DNA of 64,000 nucleotides from Peribacillus simplex (lineage in GTDB: Bacteria > Bacillota > Bacilli > Bacillales > DSM-1321), in NCBI RefSeq assembly GCF_001542915.1, contig NZ_LNNH01000012.1, forward strand, positions 393,582 to 457,581, written 5' to 3'. Positions 3,956-10,594 of this stretch are shown here, piece by piece. The notes below the pieces were generated by a model that had not been told where the DNA came from, did not search any database, and worked only from the letters and a program-made list of their open reading frames with translations. Position 1 is the first letter of the stretch; every line of letters starts with the position of its first letter. A program made the translations under genes and the position numbers.

Positions 3956-4981
3956 TTATAGTTCATTCTCGATCAAGCAAGCTATATCATATGGGCCGCT
4001 GCTTTCATTCGAAGAAATCACGGTTGTGAGGCGGTGGGCTGGATAGACAGCGGAATGGAAACTTACACCAGGGTCATATCCCATAATGTGATATTTGAAT
4101 ATCTCGCCATTTTTCTTGCTGATCCATAGCCCATACCCATAGTAATTGCCTTTAGCGTCCGTCGAAATGTGGGGCTGCAATAATACATGGGTATATTCTC
4201 GATTCAGCAATCGATTGGAAAAGAGACCTTCCCAAAATTTGACCATATCCGCTGCCGTAATGAACGCCCCACCATCCGCCCCGCCTTTGATAGGAAGCGA
4301 ATATACATTCGTTCTCCATGTTCCGTCCGCTTCGTCTATGTACCCGAGTGCCGTGTTTTCAGGCAGACTGTCCAGGGAGAAGTAACCGGAACCTTTCATA
4401 TCACAGGGTTGAAAAATGAATTTATCGATATATTCGGAAAATTCAAGTCGTGACTGTTGCTCTACGATCAACCCTAATAAAATATAACCGGCATTGTTAT
4501 AATGAAATCTTTCCCCTGGCTTGAACATCATCGCCTTATCCTGAAACATTGGCAGGAAATCCGTTAATTTTTTTATATGGTACATCGGATTTTTCTGCCA
4601 TAGCTCTTCGAAGTCCTCCATCACAGCTTCATCAAAGTAATCAGGAATACCGGCAGTATGTGTCAAAAGATGATGGATCGTTATCTGTGGGGGGAAATGT
4701 GGAAACTCGAACGATAGACATTCATTTATTCGCGAGTCCAATGTGAGTAATTCATTTTGAATCAGTTGGCAAATCGCGATCGAGGTGAACAGCTTGCAGC
4801 CAGAAGCGATTCCGAACCTTGTTTCCGTCGTATTCACGATTTCGTCCGATCGATTGGAATAACCGTGTGCCGAACAATAAATTAGCTTATCTTCCGCCTT
4901 CACGCCAATTACACCCGAGAATTCCAGTTCCTTGCTAGTTTCATTAATCAATGTAGATAGTTCCATATTGACGGTGGACAT
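3956..4981 (-). CDS. serine beta-lactamase-like hydrolase (class C / esterase family)
   Basis: The 341-residue protein has the three penicillin-recognising motifs: SGCK at 60-63 with nucleophile Ser60 and base Lys63, YNN at 161-163, and an HIMG motif near the C-terminus in place of the KTG box. The segment HHLLTHTAGI is also typical of the family. No signal peptide is seen, which argues for an intracellular esterase or peptidase rather than a secreted lactamase. The ATG at 4981 has AAGGG 8 nt upstream; the GTG at 4990 does not. It is a single gene, separated from nadE by a terminator. Confidence 0.85.
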   Translation of the reverse strand: MSTVNMELSTLINETSKELEFSGVIGVKAEDKLIYCSAHGYSNRSDEIVNTTETRFGIASGCKLFTSIAICQLIQNELLTLDSRINECLSFEFPHFPPQITIHHLLTHTAGIPDYFDEAVMEDFEELWQKNPMYHIKKLTDFLPMFQDKAMMFKPGERFHYNNAGYILLGLIVEQQSRLEFSEYIDKFIFQPCDMKGSGYFSLDSLPENTALGYIDEADGTWRTNVYSLPIKGGADGGAFITAADMVKFWEGLFSNRLLNREYTHVLLQPHISTDAKGNYYGYGLWISKKNGEIFKYHIMGYDPGVSFHSAVYPAHRLTTVISSNESSGPYDIACLIENEL

Positions 4982-5047
4982 GTAATACACCCTTTTGTCG
5001 GTACATTATTTTTCAATCTTGATGTTTTAGTAAAGGTGTTTGCCTAA

Positions 5048-5084
5048 AAAAATCCCGTATCAAAAAAACAGATGCGGGATTTTT
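5048..5084. terminator. terminator after the NAD operon
   Basis: AAAAATCCCGTATC pairs with GATGCGGGATTTTT around a poly-A loop. It has A/T flanks on both sides and is usable in both directions. Confidence 0.8.
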
Positions 5085-5131
5085 ATATTCATCCAATGAA
5101 GCCGGAGAGGATTCCCGGCTTCATCTAGCCT

Positions 5132-5962
5132 TTATTTCCACCAAGTATCGTAAACGTTAATCGCTTCATTGCGTTTATGTTCGGTTTTAGTATACCATCC
5201 TTCAATGATTTCGGCAGCTTCCGTCCTGATTTCTTTCCCTTCAAGATAATCATCGATCTCGTCGTAGCTAACGCCCAATGCCACCTCATCCGGAATCAGC
5301 GGTTTGTCATCCTCCAAATCGGCAGTTGGAACTTTCGTATATAGGCGCTCAGGAGCACCGACGAATTTCAGGATTTCCTTTCCTTGCCTTTTGTTTAATC
5401 GGTACAATGGGATCAGGTCGGCAGCGCCATCTCCATGTTTCGTGAAGAAACCTGTGATGGCTTCAGCTGCATGGTCTGTTCCAAGCACGACACCTTTATA
5501 TAGACCTGCTAAATCATACTGCACCTTCATCCGTTCGCGTGCCTTGACGTTGCCCCTTAAGAAATGCGATAGTTTTTCGGGCACAGCGTCTTCCACAGCC
5601 TGAACGGATGCATCGACGGCAGCCTTGATGTTGACGGTGACCGTTTGGCTTGGCTTGATGAATTTCAACGCCAGCTGCCTATCATCCTCATCGGCTTGGA
5701 CACCATATGGTAAGCTTACAGCGACAAACTTATATTCATTTCCGTTCGTTTCTTCATTCAGTTCATTGACAGCTGTCTGGGCGATATAACCAGCCAGAGT
5801 CGAATCCTGCCCTCCGGATATTCCAAGTATAAAGCTTTTCAGAAATGTATTTTTCTTCAAATATCCTTTCAGAAGATCCACACTTTTCCTGAATTCAACT
5901 TCAGGATCGATCGTTGGTTGAACTAGCAATTTCGTTACGATTTCTTTTTGTAATGGACGCAT
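5132..5962 (-). CDS. nadE: ammonia-dependent NAD+ synthetase
   Basis: NadE joins ammonia to deamido-NAD+ using ATP, the last step of NAD formation in the cytoplasm. The PP-loop SGGQDS is at residues 49-54, and later motifs ([28 protein letters not shown]) match the ammonia-dependent, glutaminase-free class; at 276 residues it has the size of that class. AGAGGG precedes the ATG. It is the last gene of a four-gene NAD salvage operon, 35 bp downstream of pncB. Confidence 0.96.
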
Positions 5963-5997
5963 TCACATAGACCCTCTTTCTTAGTGAAATTGATTGA

Positions 5998-7467
5998 TCA
6001 TTTCTTAAGCATTCTCTCTACATTTGCTTTAACTTCATCAATATTCCTCATCTTATTATCCCAACAATCCTGGCTAAGGTCCACCGGATATTCTTCAGGA
6101 TTGAGTGCACGAAGGTATTCTGGCCATAGTACTTGGAGATTCTTTTTCGTGAAGGCCTTTATTTCATCAATGGATGGCAAATCATAGATCAAACGGCCGT
6201 CCTTGAAAATATCCTCATGCAGATCAACCGCATCGAAGTCGGTGACGAATTTACTAAGGAAGGTATGGACCGGGTGAAACATTTTTAGTTTTTCTTGATC
6301 CTGCGGCTTTTCATATTCCATGGCCAAATAGTCGCCTTCAGCATGGTGATTCACTTTATTGATGATCCGGTATACCCGCTTCAAGCCGGGTGTCGTCACT
6401 TTTTCAGGGTTTGAAGAAATTTTGATGGTATCTCTCATATTCCCATCTTCGCCCTCTATTGAAACCATTTTATAGACCGCGCCCAACGCTGGCTGGTCAT
6501 AAGCTGTGATCAATTTGGTTCCGATGCCCCAAATGTCAATTCTGGCGCCTTGCTGCTTCAAGTTTATGATCGTGTATTCATCCAAATCATTGGATGCAAC
6601 AATCTTCGCATCATGGAAACCAGCAGCATCGAGCATTCGCCTTGCTTCCTTCGATAGGTAAGCTAAGTCGCCGCTGTCGAGGCGGACGCCGATGAAATTG
6701 ATTTTATTCCCCAGCTCCTTGGCGACCCGGATTGCATTTGGGATGCCTGAGCGCAAAGTGTCATACGTATCGACGAGGAAAACACAATCCTTGTGGGAAA
6801 CGGCATATTTATGGAATGCCGTATATTCATCTTTATAAGCCTGGATCATGGAATGGGCATGCGTTCCTGAAACTGGAATGCCAAACAGTTTACCCGCACG
6901 GACATTGCTTGTGGAATCGAAACCAGCAAGATAGGCGGCTCTCGCTCCCCAAATGGCCGCATCCATTTCTTGTGCCCTTCTTGAACCGAATTCAAGGGCG
7001 GACTCATCACCAATGACTTGTTTAATGCGCGAGGCTTTCGTAGCTACGAGTGTGTGATAGTTCACAATGTTCAGTAAAGCCGTTTCAATCAGCTGGGCTT
7101 CACCAAGAGGTGCTTCCACACGTAAAATCGGTTCATTGCCAAAGACGAGCTCCCCCTCCTTCATGCAGCGAATCGTCCCTGTAAAACTTATGTTTTGCAA
7201 ATAATCCAAATATTCCTCATCATAATGCAGCTCGTTTTTCAAATAGTCGATATCACTTTCAGAGAAGCAGAAGTTTTGCAGGTAATGAACGATTTTTTCA
7301 AGTCCGGCAAAAATCGCATAGCCGCTGTTAAATGGAAGCTTCCTGAAAAATATCTCAAAAACGGCCTTTCGCTCATGAGTTTTATCTTGCCAGTATGTTT
7401 GGGCCATATTAATTTGGTATAGATCGGTGTGTAAGGCGTAACTGTCGTCGTTGTACTTTTTTTCCAT
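5998..7467 (-). CDS. pncB: nicotinate phosphoribosyltransferase
   Basis: PncB converts nicotinate and PRPP to nicotinate mononucleotide. The 489-residue protein starts MEKKYNDDSYALHTDLYQIN as in Bacillus homologues. It carries the GSRRAQ, SGTHAHS, RLDSGDL and ASNDLDE motifs of the family's active site. GGGAGGAA lies 6 nt before the ATG. It sits between pncA, which supplies nicotinate from nicotinamide, and nadE, which finishes NAD synthesis. Confidence 0.95.
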   Translation of the reverse strand: MEKKYNDDSYALHTDLYQINMAQTYWQDKTHERKAVFEIFFRKLPFNSGYAIFAGLEKIVHYLQNFCFSESDIDYLKNELHYDEEYLDYLQNISFTGTIRCMKEGELVFGNEPILRVEAPLGEAQLIETALLNIVNYHTLVATKASRIKQVIGDESALEFGSRRAQEMDAAIWGARAAYLAGFDSTSNVRAGKLFGIPVSGTHAHSMIQAYKDEYTAFHKYAVSHKDCVFLVDTYDTLRSGIPNAIRVAKELGNKINFIGVRLDSGDLAYLSKEARRMLDAAGFHDAKIVASNDLDEYTIINLKQQGARIDIWGIGTKLITAYDQPALGAVYKMVSIEGEDGNMRDTIKISSNPEKVTTPGLKRVYRIINKVNHHAEGDYLAMEYEKPQDQEKLKMFHPVHTFLSKFVTDFDAVDLHEDIFKDGRLIYDLPSIDEIKAFTKKNLQVLWPEYLRALNPEEYPVDLSQDCWDNKMRNIDEVKANVERMLKK

Positions 7468-7524
7468 GGATAGTTCCTCCCAAAAGAGAAGCGTATACTT
7501 CCCTTCTATTCTGTTGCATGTTGG

Positions 7525-8079
7525 CTATGATAGAATGGTTGCGCCAAGAGATCCTTTAAAATGACCAAGCGCCCATTCGTGGCCTTTATCGTTGAACGAA
7601 GCCACTGCATGTTCATATACGAAGATATTGTAGCCTAGATTGTAAGCATCGATTGCCGTGTGCAAAATGCAAATATCTGTGCACACCCCGACTAAATGCA
7701 CTTCGGTGATGTGCCGCTCCCTTAGGCGGATATCAAGTTCCGTTCCTGCAAATGCCGAATAACGTGTTTTATCTATATAATGAACATTACTTCGATTTTT
7801 ATTTGCTTCATATTCTTCTTTTAGCTTCCCATATAAGTCCCTACCCATTGTACCGCTAATATTATGCGGTGGAAACAAATTCGTTTCAGGATGTAAGCGG
7901 TCTCCTTCATCATGCAAGTCAATGGCAAATACGGTATAGTCGCCATTTTTGATGAATTCCTTGGTTATACCGACAAGTACCTCCTCGATATCCTGGCCTG
8001 GTTTCCCGCAGGTCAATGCTCCCTTATCCGCCACAAAGTCATACGTATAATCGATATTGATCAATGCCTTTTTTCCCAT
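7525..8079 (-). CDS. pncA: nicotinamidase (cysteine hydrolase)
   Basis: PncA hydrolyses nicotinamide to nicotinate and ammonia. The catalytic triad of the isochorismatase-like fold is visible: Asp10 (NIDYTYDF), Lys104 (DKTRYSAF) and Cys137 (GVCTDICILHTA). An Asp54-x-His56 pair and His72 are likely metal ligands. The 184-residue length is normal for Bacillus PncA. AAAGGGGGG precedes the ATG. The operon context (regulator, pncB, nadE) supports nicotinamide over other substrates. Confidence 0.93.
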   Translation of the reverse strand: MGKKALINIDYTYDFVADKGALTCGKPGQDIEEVLVGITKEFIKNGDYTVFAIDLHDEGDRLHPETNLFPPHNISGTMGRDLYGKLKEEYEANKNRSNVHYIDKTRYSAFAGTELDIRLRERHITEVHLVGVCTDICILHTAIDAYNLGYNIFVYEHAVASFNDKGHEWALGHFKGSLGATILS

Positions 8080-8096
8080 TACAGGTATTCCCCCCT

Positions 8097-8861
8097 TTAA
8101 TAATAAATGGAGTCCGTGACAACCTCTGCATTAAATCGGTAAAGCTGTGATGGCCGATATGAATTGCGTTTTGTTTTCTTCTGCATGCCTTTTTCATCCA
8201 AGACTTTCTCCAAAAACGGAAGTTTAGGCGCCTTGGCATAAAAAAGCGAATCCGCGCTTATCTTCGCATCATCTCTTGCTGTCAGCAGGACCCGCTGCAA
8301 TTCAGATAGAGTAAACTCTTCTGGCAGGAACTTTTGTGCTATCGTCGTTTGCACCATTTCCTTTTTCAGTAAGTTCATTGCATCATGGATGATCGACTCA
8401 TGGTCAAATGCAAGCTCCAATTGCAAAGCTTCCTGCACCGTGAACAATTCAACCTCCGCTGCATCGTCACTCGCTTTTCTATGATGGAGAAACTCTTCCT
8501 GCACGATGGCATAAAAGGCGTTGGAAATGATCCACCCTCTCGGATCGCGTCCTGGCCGGTCATAAACACCGAAATGCTCGACATGGAATCCCGCTACACC
8601 CGTTTCTTCCTTCAATTCTCGTTTGGCGGCTTCATAGGCCGTCTCCTTGGCATTCACAAAGCCGCCAGGCAACGCCCATTTACCTCCATCAATATTCGGA
8701 TTTCCTTCTTTGTCATTTGTGGCACGTTTGATCAATAATAGCTTCAAAAACATTTCAGGTGGTGCCTTTTCAGCCGTTTTCTTGGTCGTAATCGTAAAGA
8801 TCGCAATATCCGCGGTGTATCCATCCGGAGTAATATACTTCTTTTTTTCATGCTGGTCCAT
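8097..8861 (-). CDS. Nudix hydrolase with C-terminal winged helix (NrtR-like regulator)
   Basis: Residues 10-150 form a Nudix domain with an intact Nudix box at 67-89 (Gly67, Glu73, then RELKEETGV), so catalysis is possible. The C-terminal part (FTLSELQRVLL ... YRPSQLYRF) matches the winged-helix layout of the NrtR family, repressors of NAD genes that sense ADP-ribose. It is first in an operon of NAD salvage genes, and a perfect inverted repeat covers its -10 box. An autoregulating NrtR-type repressor, possibly also an ADP-ribose or NADH pyrophosphatase, is the best reading. The ATG at 8861 is chosen over the GTG at 8873; neither has a strong ribosome site. Confidence 0.85.
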   Translation of the reverse strand: MDQHEKKKYITPDGYTADIAIFTITTKKTAEKAPPEMFLKLLLIKRATNDKEGNPNIDGGKWALPGGFVNAKETAYEAAKRELKEETGVAGFHVEHFGVYDRPGRDPRGWIISNAFYAIVQEEFLHHRKASDDAAEVELFTVQEALQLELAFDHESIIHDAMNLLKKEMVQTTIAQKFLPEEFTLSELQRVLLTARDDAKISADSLFYAKAPKLPFLEKVLDEKGMQKKTKRNSYRPSQLYRFNAEVVTDSIYY

Positions 8862-8900
8862 GGCAACTCTCACTTTCTTTCACTAAGTATGGGACTGAGG

Positions 8901-8928
8901 TAATTAGTAAATCATTAATTACTAATTA
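8901..8928. promoter_or_regulatory. perfect 10-bp inverted repeat, putative NAD-operon operator
   Basis: TAATTAGTAA (8901-8910) and TTACTAATTA (8919-8928) are exact inverse copies around an 8-bp spacer. A TATAAT -10 box for the minus-strand operon lies at 8925-8930, so a protein bound here would block RNA polymerase. The NrtR-like product of the first gene is the obvious candidate. Confidence 0.6.
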
Positions 8929-9015
8929 TAGTACTCCTTCAGCGATCATTTAGCAACTTCAAACGAAAAGAAATTTTCTTATTGTTCAAAAAATCTTTCA
9001 TTTTGGCTTTAACCC

Positions 9016-9059
9016 ACAAAAAAAAGCCCGATCATGATGATGACCGGACTTTTTTTGTG
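9016..9059. terminator. bidirectional terminator after yngE
   Basis: An A-rich left side with AAGCCCGATCATGA pairs with the GACCGGACTT region, ending in TTTTTTT, between yngE and the NAD-operon promoter. Confidence 0.75.
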
Positions 9060-9064
9060 CCTAT

Positions 9065-10594
9065 TTAGACGGGATAGACTCCGTGCTTGCGCGCCGTAAA
9101 CGTCAATTGTTTGCTTCCATACGCCTCAAACCGGACACTCAACTCCGCTCGCAGGTCATTGGGCTGGATGATGCCGTCAACGATCATCTCGGATGCTAAA
9201 CGATAAATATCAATGTCTTCATTATATTCAGTTCGCTTCTGGGCGATGAAGGCGGGCCTTTCTTCCGCTTCCATTGCATTGATTTTATTGGCATAAACGG
9301 CATTGACTGCAGCTTCCGCCCCCATGACGGCGATCAGCGCCGTTGGCAGGGCCAGAACGCAATCCGGTTCAAAAGCGGGGCCGGCCATCGCATATAGCCC
9401 GGCGCCATAAGCCTTACGGACAATGACAGAAATCTTAGGCACCGTGGCCTCACTCATGGCCGATATCATTTTCGCACCATGGCGAATGATGCCTGCCTGC
9501 TCGACCTTCGTCCCAATCATGAATCCAGGAATATCCACAAGGAACAATAGCGGTATATGGAAGGCATCACATAAATTGATGAATTTCGCTGCCTTGTCTG
9601 CTGAATCATGAAACAATACCCCGCCTTTGACACGCGGCTGATTGGCAATGATCCCAATGGACTTCCCATTCAGCCTGGCGAGCCCGGTAATTAATTCGGG
9701 GGCGAAAAGCTTCTTGATTTCACAAAACGACTCCTTGTCTATGACCCGGTCGATCAAATCATACATATTGAAGGGGGCGTTCTGATTTTTCGGAATCAAT
9801 TCCTCCAACGTCTTGTCAAATTGCTCTGGAAGTTCAGGTTTCACAGGTGCAGGCTTTTCCTGATAATTTCCTGGAAAATAGCTTAAGTATTTGCGGGCAA
9901 ACGCGATCGACTCTTCTTCCGATTTCACCAGCACATCTCCGCATCCTGAAACGGAGCAATGCATTTTAGCCCCGCCCATCTCCTCTTCGGTCACCTTTTC
10001 GCCAATGACCATTTCCGCCATTCTCGGTGAACCTAAATACATCGAAGCATTCCCCTCGACCATCACGACAATATCACAAAAAGCTGGGATATATGCCCCT
10101 CCTGCAGCTGAAGGACCGAACAATAGACAGATTTGCGGAACTTTTCCGGATAACTTCACTTGGTTATAAAAAATGCGTCCTGCACCGCGGCGTCCCGGAA
10201 ACATTTCCACTTGATCGGTAATCCTTGCTCCTGCAGAGTCGACCAAGTATAGTAGCGGCAGCAGCAGTTTTTCTGCGGTTTCTTGGATGCGGATGATTTT
10301 CTCGACAGTCCTTGCTCCCCAAGAGCCGGCTTTAACGGTCGAATCATTGGCCATGACACAAACCCTCTGACCATTTATTTTTCCGATTCCTGTAACGACC
10401 CCATCCGCCGGAAGGCCATCATTGGCACAATTGGCAAAGAAGGCGTCCTCTATTTCAACCCCTTCATCAAATAAGAGCTCCAGACGTTCACGTACGAAAA
10501 GCTTTCCTTTTTCAGCATTTTTTTGGTGATATTTTTCTAAACCGCCTTTTTTGATCGTTTCTACCGTTTCCGTTAATTTATCAGTCGTCACCAT
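9065..10594 (-). CDS. yngE: acyl-CoA carboxylase carboxyltransferase subunit (methylcrotonyl-CoA carboxylase type)
   Basis: YngE moves the carboxyl group from biotin to the acyl-CoA. The 509-residue protein has both crotonase-like halves of the family, with GPSAAGGAYIPAFCD and the RKAYGAGLYAM-type oxyanion loops. GGAGG 7 nt upstream selects the ATG at 10594; the frame extends nine codons further into yngF. With the biotin carboxylase YngH and carrier YngHB encoded upstream, it would form a methylcrotonyl-CoA carboxylase in leucine breakdown. Propionyl- or geranyl-CoA cannot be excluded from sequence alone. It is the last gene of the operon. Confidence 0.92.
   Translation of the reverse strand: MVTTDKLTETVETIKKGGLEKYHQKNAEKGKLFVRERLELLFDEGVEIEDAFFANCANDGLPADGVVTGIGKINGQRVCVMANDSTVKAGSWGARTVEKIIRIQETAEKLLLPLLYLVDSAGARITDQVEMFPGRRGAGRIFYNQVKLSGKVPQICLLFGPSAAGGAYIPAFCDIVVMVEGNASMYLGSPRMAEMVIGEKVTEEEMGGAKMHCSVSGCGDVLVKSEEESIAFARKYLSYFPGNYQEKPAPVKPELPEQFDKTLEELIPKNQNAPFNMYDLIDRVIDKESFCEIKKLFAPELITGLARLNGKSIGIIANQPRVKGGVLFHDSADKAAKFINLCDAFHIPLLFLVDIPGFMIGTKVEQAGIIRHGAKMISAMSEATVPKISVIVRKAYGAGLYAMAGPAFEPDCVLALPTALIAVMGAEAAVNAVYANKINAMEAEERPAFIAQKRTEYNEDIDIYRLASEMIVDGIIQPNDLRAELSVRFEAYGSKQLTFTARKHGVYPV

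Follow-up and report, generated by a model that had tools for sequence, protein, structure and literature searches.

How the recycling of vitamin B3 is controlled in a bacillus that also encodes NiaR (YrxA), the NAD (nicotinamide adenine dinucleotide) regulator of Bacillus subtilis, is the question raised by a stretch of 64,000 nucleotides from Peribacillus simplex (contig NZ_LNNH01000012.1, positions 393,582 to 457,581), referred to here as the window. On its minus strand, from position 8861 to 5132, lies a four-gene NAD salvage operon, nrtR-pncA-pncB-nadE, preceded by a perfect palindrome. From the analysis of the window, its genome and related genomes, the operon is very probably repressed by its own first product, NrtR, acting at the palindrome, and released by adenosine diphosphate ribose (ADP-ribose), in parallel with NiaR.

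The first gene, nrtR (8097-8861, minus strand, as are all features located below), encodes a Nudix domain with an intact Nudix box, followed by an NrtR winged helix. Its product has 254 residues when read from the ATG at 8861, and 258 when read from the GTG at 8873, at which the list of open reading frames begins the gene; the ATG is the more likely start, since a relative (L008) carries AAGGAG-CTGCC-ATG at the corresponding place. The second gene, pncA (7525-8079), codes for a nicotinamidase of the isochorismatase fold, close to nicotinamidases of known structure (3o90, E 8e-64); for PncA, none of the NCBIfam equivalogs attained its cut-off. The remaining genes encode nicotinate phosphoribosyltransferase (pncB, 5998-7467; NF006697, 928.7 bits against a cut-off of 776) and NAD synthetase (nadE, 5132-5962; NF001979, 404.2 bits against 250). 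Gaps of 17, 57 and 35 bases separate the successive genes, which is consistent with a single operon. The gene order and domains thus confirm the initial annotation, which had placed an NrtR-like Nudix regulator with a winged helix and an intact Nudix box at the head of pncA, pncB and nadE.

The regulator is of the NrtR type: it joins a Nudix domain to an NrtR winged helix, and over its full length its predicted fold matches that of Shewanella NrtR. The Nudix domain is located at the N-terminus (PF00293, 64.2 bits against a cut-off of 21.1, E 1.5e-17), and the C-terminal winged helix passes its cut-off narrowly (PF21906, NrtR_WHD, 27.9 bits against 27). The AlphaFold model, with a mean predicted local distance difference test score of 80.4, aligns across both domains, over 236-251 columns, with Shewanella NrtR (3gz5 and 3gz6) and with BtAraR (5bs6), at template modelling scores by query of 0.61-0.66, root-mean-square deviations of 3.7-5.0 and E values of 1e-13 to 4e-16. 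The best structural match, 3i9x from Listeria, is confined to the Nudix part. The 3H domain (PF02829) was not found in this protein, and the NiaR of the same genome is encoded by a separate gene.

The palindrome, located at 8901-8928, reads TAATTAGTAA-TTAATGAT-TTACTAATTA, with perfect 10-base arms around a spacer of 8 bases, in agreement with the initial annotation, and it is kept together with nrtR in relatives. In the window, TAATTAGTAA-n8-TTACTAATTA is the sole match at up to three mismatches, and none of 100 shuffles contained a match. In the 5.1-Mb genome the perfect palindrome occurs once, accompanied by one further match at exactly three mismatches; the reversed control pattern also finds one, and the open reading frames beside the three-mismatch site resemble, by eye, ATP-synthase genes and not NAD genes. 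Copies near other NAD genes, for which the initial annotation proposed a genome search, were absent beyond the operon itself: the 28-mer at up to three mismatches revealed no second NAD-linked site, hence no sign of a wider regulon, in its own genome. The search with the 22-mer core at the same tolerance was uninformative, because the reversed control outnumbered the pattern (1110 sites against 292); the best lesser site (L042, one mismatch), the only one inspected, has neighbours that by eye are unrelated to NAD.

The promoter context of the palindrome is compatible with repression. The only -35-like element is a possible box, TTGCTA (8951-8956), with a weak match to the consensus, and two -10 boxes compete behind it: TACTAT (8928-8933), 17 nucleotides from TTGCTA and abutting the palindrome, and TATAAT (8925-8930), 20 nucleotides from TTGCTA and overlapping the palindrome. 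Both score equally under the scoring used here, and two diverged relatives favour TACTAT, with TTGCAA-17-TATGAT in L022 and TTGAAA-17-TAGGAT in L023. The true -10 box may be TACTAT instead of TATAAT. The overlap with TATAAT reported in the initial annotation stands, but its assignment as the -10 box is weakened by the 20-nucleotide spacing. With either box, the palindrome would cover the -10 region and the transcription start, a position suited to a repressor.

Comparison within the genus, covering 35 genomes (G000-G034), links the palindrome to the regulator. A strong nrtR match was identified in 25 of them, and in 21 of these 25 it is accompanied by an operator with AATTAGTA arms; the 8-bp core arms, AATTAGTA-n10-TACTAATT, are perfect in 20 of the 21 (window included), and 7 of 8 positions are paired in the remaining one. 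The initial annotation had made its reading depend on finding the palindrome upstream of orthologous operons, and there it is present. The nrtR site is the single site within one mismatch in 20 of the 21 genomes, and the remaining genome has one extra. With the reversed control yielding 0-3 sites per genome at this one-mismatch tolerance, the additional sites in G015, G009 and G002 are no more than chance would give. The other four nrtR-bearing genomes (G011, G019, G021 and G027; loci L025, L029, L024 and L027) encode a more distant NrtR of 57-59% identity together with an ATTAAC-type element, and form a second NrtR lineage in the genus, possibly a result of gene replacement.

The ten genomes without a full nrtR all keep pncB. 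In eight of them no operator of this design was found 5' of pncA, pncB or an alternative first gene, within 260 bases upstream of pncA for five genomes and within a stretch of 3-4 kb for three. Two remnants are informative: G014, in which no nrtR was found, has a degenerate operator with one changed arm, and G026 (L191, L192) has an intact operator beside an inverted nrtR fragment of 51 codons, with pncB-nadE 35 kb away. Short nrtR fragments are present in G003. The operator and the regulator have largely been retained and lost jointly, and the palindrome as the predicted NrtR operator is supported by this phylogenetic evidence. In G026, a natural rearrangement has removed nrtR and the greater part of pncA. 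Other variants of the locus were noticed in the genus. In G005 (L023, 2265-3188) a 308-residue protein that matches the isochorismatase model only weakly (PF00857, 22.6 bits against a cut-off of 27) replaces pncA in the nrtR operon, and open reading frames resembling it by eye are situated 5' of pncB in G003, G014, G018 and G032. A distant relative of the regulator is found in G002 (L032) within a 320-residue frame (44% over residues 7-148 and 40% over 147-255); no NAD salvage genes adjoin it within the 3.4-kb locus.

Across the order Bacillales, an NrtR orthologue at E<=1e-40 was found in 83 of 397 sampled genomes and 29 of 135 genera, the named records including Peribacillus, Domibacillus, Lysinibacillus, Oceanobacillus, Paenibacillus and Cytobacillus. 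The tests of gene content, Nudix signature, residues and operator were performed on the best 80 of at least 567 confirmed loci, all 80 being kept in each test; being the best-scoring, they tilt towards close relatives. The genes near nrtR include pncA in 64, pncB in 69, nadE in 43 and all three in 37 of the 80 loci. At least one of pncA and pncB is present in 71, in L112 and L128 only through 25-41% homologues, and the other nine carry pnuC and/or nadR-type genes (assigned through Pfam for L122, L149 and L160, and by eye from the N-termini for the rest). Compared to dinucleotide shuffles, a palindrome of the same geometry was detected at 47 of the 80 loci at p<=0.01 and at 56 at p<=0.05.

An element resembling the window operator, but with a shifted half-site (AATTAACA), recurs in other Bacillales. 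When a half-site rule was applied to 81 sequences (the 80 loci and the window), 15 were of the AATTAGTA type and 53 of the ATTAACA type, while two had both and 11 neither; these two operator classes hint at a change in specificity that lends itself to mapping. Residue 209 of the winged helix was considered in this respect, being arginine in 50 of 53 ATTAACA-type proteins and in none of the 15 AATTAGTA-type proteins, in a comparison that leaves out the 13 of 81 rows with neither or both types and relies on a chance-prone 7-base ATTAACA rule. The association was rejected as not significant, because it tracks phylogeny, with just two independent pairs on supported branches. In L093, L094, L098 and L143 (Lysinibacillus and Bacillus sp.) a variant such as AGTAATT-n-AATTACA-AATTACT, with an apparent third tandem half-site, was noted by eye 5' of nrtR.

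A mechanism may be proposed in which an NrtR-type dimer, seated on the palindrome across the -10 region and the transcription start, would block RNA polymerase. NAD consumption would yield ADP-ribose, which would bind the Nudix domain and free the repressor from DNA, and nicotinamide, the other product of NAD breakdown, would be recycled via PncA, PncB and NadE, with NiaR presumably governing the de novo genes in parallel. The dimer, the repression, the effector and the NiaR targets in this organism are inferred from the family; according to PMC12735969, streptococcal NrtR represses pncB and pnuC and is released by ADP-ribose. Several observations weigh against this proposal. A consensus promoter scan, which found 10 promoters where 8.8 are expected by chance, recovers none of TTGCTA, TACTAT and TATAAT, and 24 of the 80 wider loci fail the operator test at p<=0.05, some of them showing a variant element by eye. 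The window protein likewise exceeds the cut-off of AraR_C, the model of the arabinose branch (26.7 bits against 23.8), and scores 99.4 bits against the cut-off of 400 for NF050029 (ADPR responsive repressor), so the effector is not settled by that model. Furthermore, the Corynebacterium relative NdnR reportedly responds to NAD instead (PMC4666351, PMC6800001).

The relation to NiaR requires separate consideration. The NiaR of this genome (Pfam: HTH_11 and 3H) adjoins genes that by eye are of nifS type, nadB, nadC and nadA-like, and NiaR (PF02829) is encoded in all 61 genomes searched, whether they have nrtR or not. An alternative circuit in place of the B. subtilis NAD repressor, as suggested by the initial annotation, is not supported by this distribution; NrtR is an added circuit parallel to NiaR and no substitute for it. 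Overlapping distributions of both regulators are also described for Lactobacillales (PMC3616900). It could be argued that NiaR, rather than NrtR, is the main regulator of the operon, since it is present in the genome and PMC7713382 lists pncA and pncB, besides nifS and nadBCA, among its targets. This is very unlikely, as the conserved promoter palindrome follows nrtR, whereas NiaR is found in 61 of 61 genomes regardless; NiaR sites were not part of the search.

Two further explanations were weighed. The Nudix protein might be an enzyme only, an ADP-ribose pyrophosphatase co-expressed with the salvage genes, while another factor occupies the palindrome; the intact Nudix box fits such a role, and on plasmid records most homologues carry the annotation NUDIX hydrolase or NUDIX domain-containing protein. 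The winged helix above its Pfam cut-off, the full-length fold match including the DNA complex 3gz6, and a site that follows nrtR and, in eight of the ten genomes that lack a full nrtR, was not found 5' of pncA/pncB make this quite improbable. An RNA hairpin in the leader is hardly conceivable. The palindrome folds at -10.6 kcal/mol with both arms paired, but its z-score is -1.86 and 9 of 200 shuffles fold equally well; the upstream arm, overlapping or abutting the -10 box, would be mostly untranscribed. An Rfam search of 4900-9200 returned two matches, neither of which covers the palindrome, and each falls far short of its gathering score. The hairpin and riboswitch readings were rejected on the shuffle comparison and the Rfam result. 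Autorepression by NrtR at the palindrome is thus the preferred reading. It points to NAD control by two circuits, NrtR as well as NiaR, across many bacilli, the 83 genomes counted above, and assigns a likely function to proteins mostly annotated as plain NUDIX on plasmid records.

The mainly unusual feature of this circuit is a conserved and apparently working catalytic site. According to PMC4666351, NrtR regulators that govern NAD metabolism have an impaired Nudix signature; the window protein fits the Nudix box GX5EX7REUXEEXGU and lacks such impairment. The exactly spaced signature was found in 56 of the 81 sequences, and the 25 deviating ones have (i) extra residues between G and E (13), (ii) a changed E82 (5) or (iii) a changed last G (7). 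E73, R81, E85 and E86 are present in all 81 Bacillales proteins and E82 in 76, so that all five catalytic residues are intact in 76 of 81 overall and in 72 of 72 proteins without pnuC/nadR linkage. The five losses of E82 (to K or R) all fall within the nine pnuC/nadR-linked proteins, four of which keep it. Among 11 hand-picked plasmid-borne homologues, six of the eight from outside Bacilli are degenerate at the catalytic positions, while two (Leptolyngbya and Prevotella) and all three from Bacilli are intact.

The initial annotation saw room for an enzyme-regulator, and it is possible, if somewhat doubtful, that in addition to repressing the operon this protein hydrolyses ADP-ribose, thereby destroying its own inducer and resetting the operon. 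The Bacillales NrtR would then be a bifunctional enzyme-repressor: relieved of repression by ADP-ribose, the operon would be shut down again once the repressor had hydrolysed that signal, so that NAD salvage would come as a self-timed pulse. The residue counts above and the degeneration in most homologues outside Bacilli favour this idea, as does the report that restoration of the motif brought activity back to the NrtR of S. suis (PMC12735969). In that paper the S. suis protein is described as inactive, and a significant number of family members are considered to have possibly kept the function. On the other side, an intact motif is no proof of enzyme activity, reversion of the motif failed to restore activity in MsNrtR (PMC6800001), and the residues may be kept for metal-dependent ligand binding; their presence in two of the eight homologues outside Bacilli indicates that the trait is not limited to the Bacillales group. 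If the bifunctional repressor exists, the catalytic step would have been lost in descendants that include many NrtRs of other groups and some of the pnuC/nadR-linked branch, and the Bacillales group would hold states before and after its loss. The proposal in PMC6800001, by which NrtRs arose through recruitment of an active Nudix enzyme whose activity was then lost, becomes testable on the natural series of intact box, loss of one glutamate and loss of nrtR.

Two neighbouring genes deserve mention in connection with ADP-ribose. In Cytobacillus praedii (L160, 7068-7910) an ADP-ribosylglycohydrolase gene (PF03747, 219.9 bits) is located directly 3' of nrtR-pnuC-nadR, and on a Prevotella plasmid (L199, 1-1409) an annotated ADP-ribosylglycohydrolase lies directly 5' of a Nudix-winged-helix protein with intact catalytic residues. 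Enzymes of this kind might supply ADP-ribose locally. At the borders of the window operon, possible terminators are represented by an inverted repeat 3' of nadE (5045-5087; 17-nucleotide arms, 88% complementary, A/T-rich ends) and by another between the upstream gene, ending at 9065, and nrtR (9019-9056); the terminator scan, which like the promoter scan performs at chance level, reported neither repeat.

Among the entries listed by searches of an open-licence library, none described a Bacillales NrtR. Members may already have been predicted by others. In PMC11960082, the one Bacillaceae genome paper in which the word NrtR occurs, antiSMASH weakly predicts a site for it in Priestia megaterium, and the Bacillales are covered by 134 regulogs in RegPrecise 3.0 (PMC3840689). 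With the NrtR family of Shewanella, Synechocystis, mycobacteria and streptococci the window system shares a Nudix domain followed by a winged helix, an operator palindrome at the promoter of NAD genes and its own gene within the operon. The differences relate to the catalytic residues, kept in the window protein and called impaired in PMC4666351, and to the operator, AATTAGTA-n10-TACTAATT in contrast to the mycobacterial GTTTTCGA-n7-TCGAAAAC and the streptococcal motif (PMC6800001). Streptococcal NrtR linked to pnuC-nadR has its counterpart in the nine Bacillales loci with these genes instead of pncA/pncB, whereas the window operon is of the pncA-pncB-nadE type. The AraR/XylR branch of Bacteroidetes has the same two-domain layout, and its AraR_C model matches the window NrtR, but that branch controls pentose use (PMC4666351), while the window operon comprises the regulator and NAD salvage genes only. 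NiaR of B. subtilis likewise regulates NAD genes and is present in the genome of the window; in contrast to NrtR, it is built from HTH_11 and 3H domains, its published effector is niacin (PMC7713382), and the two regulators coexist.

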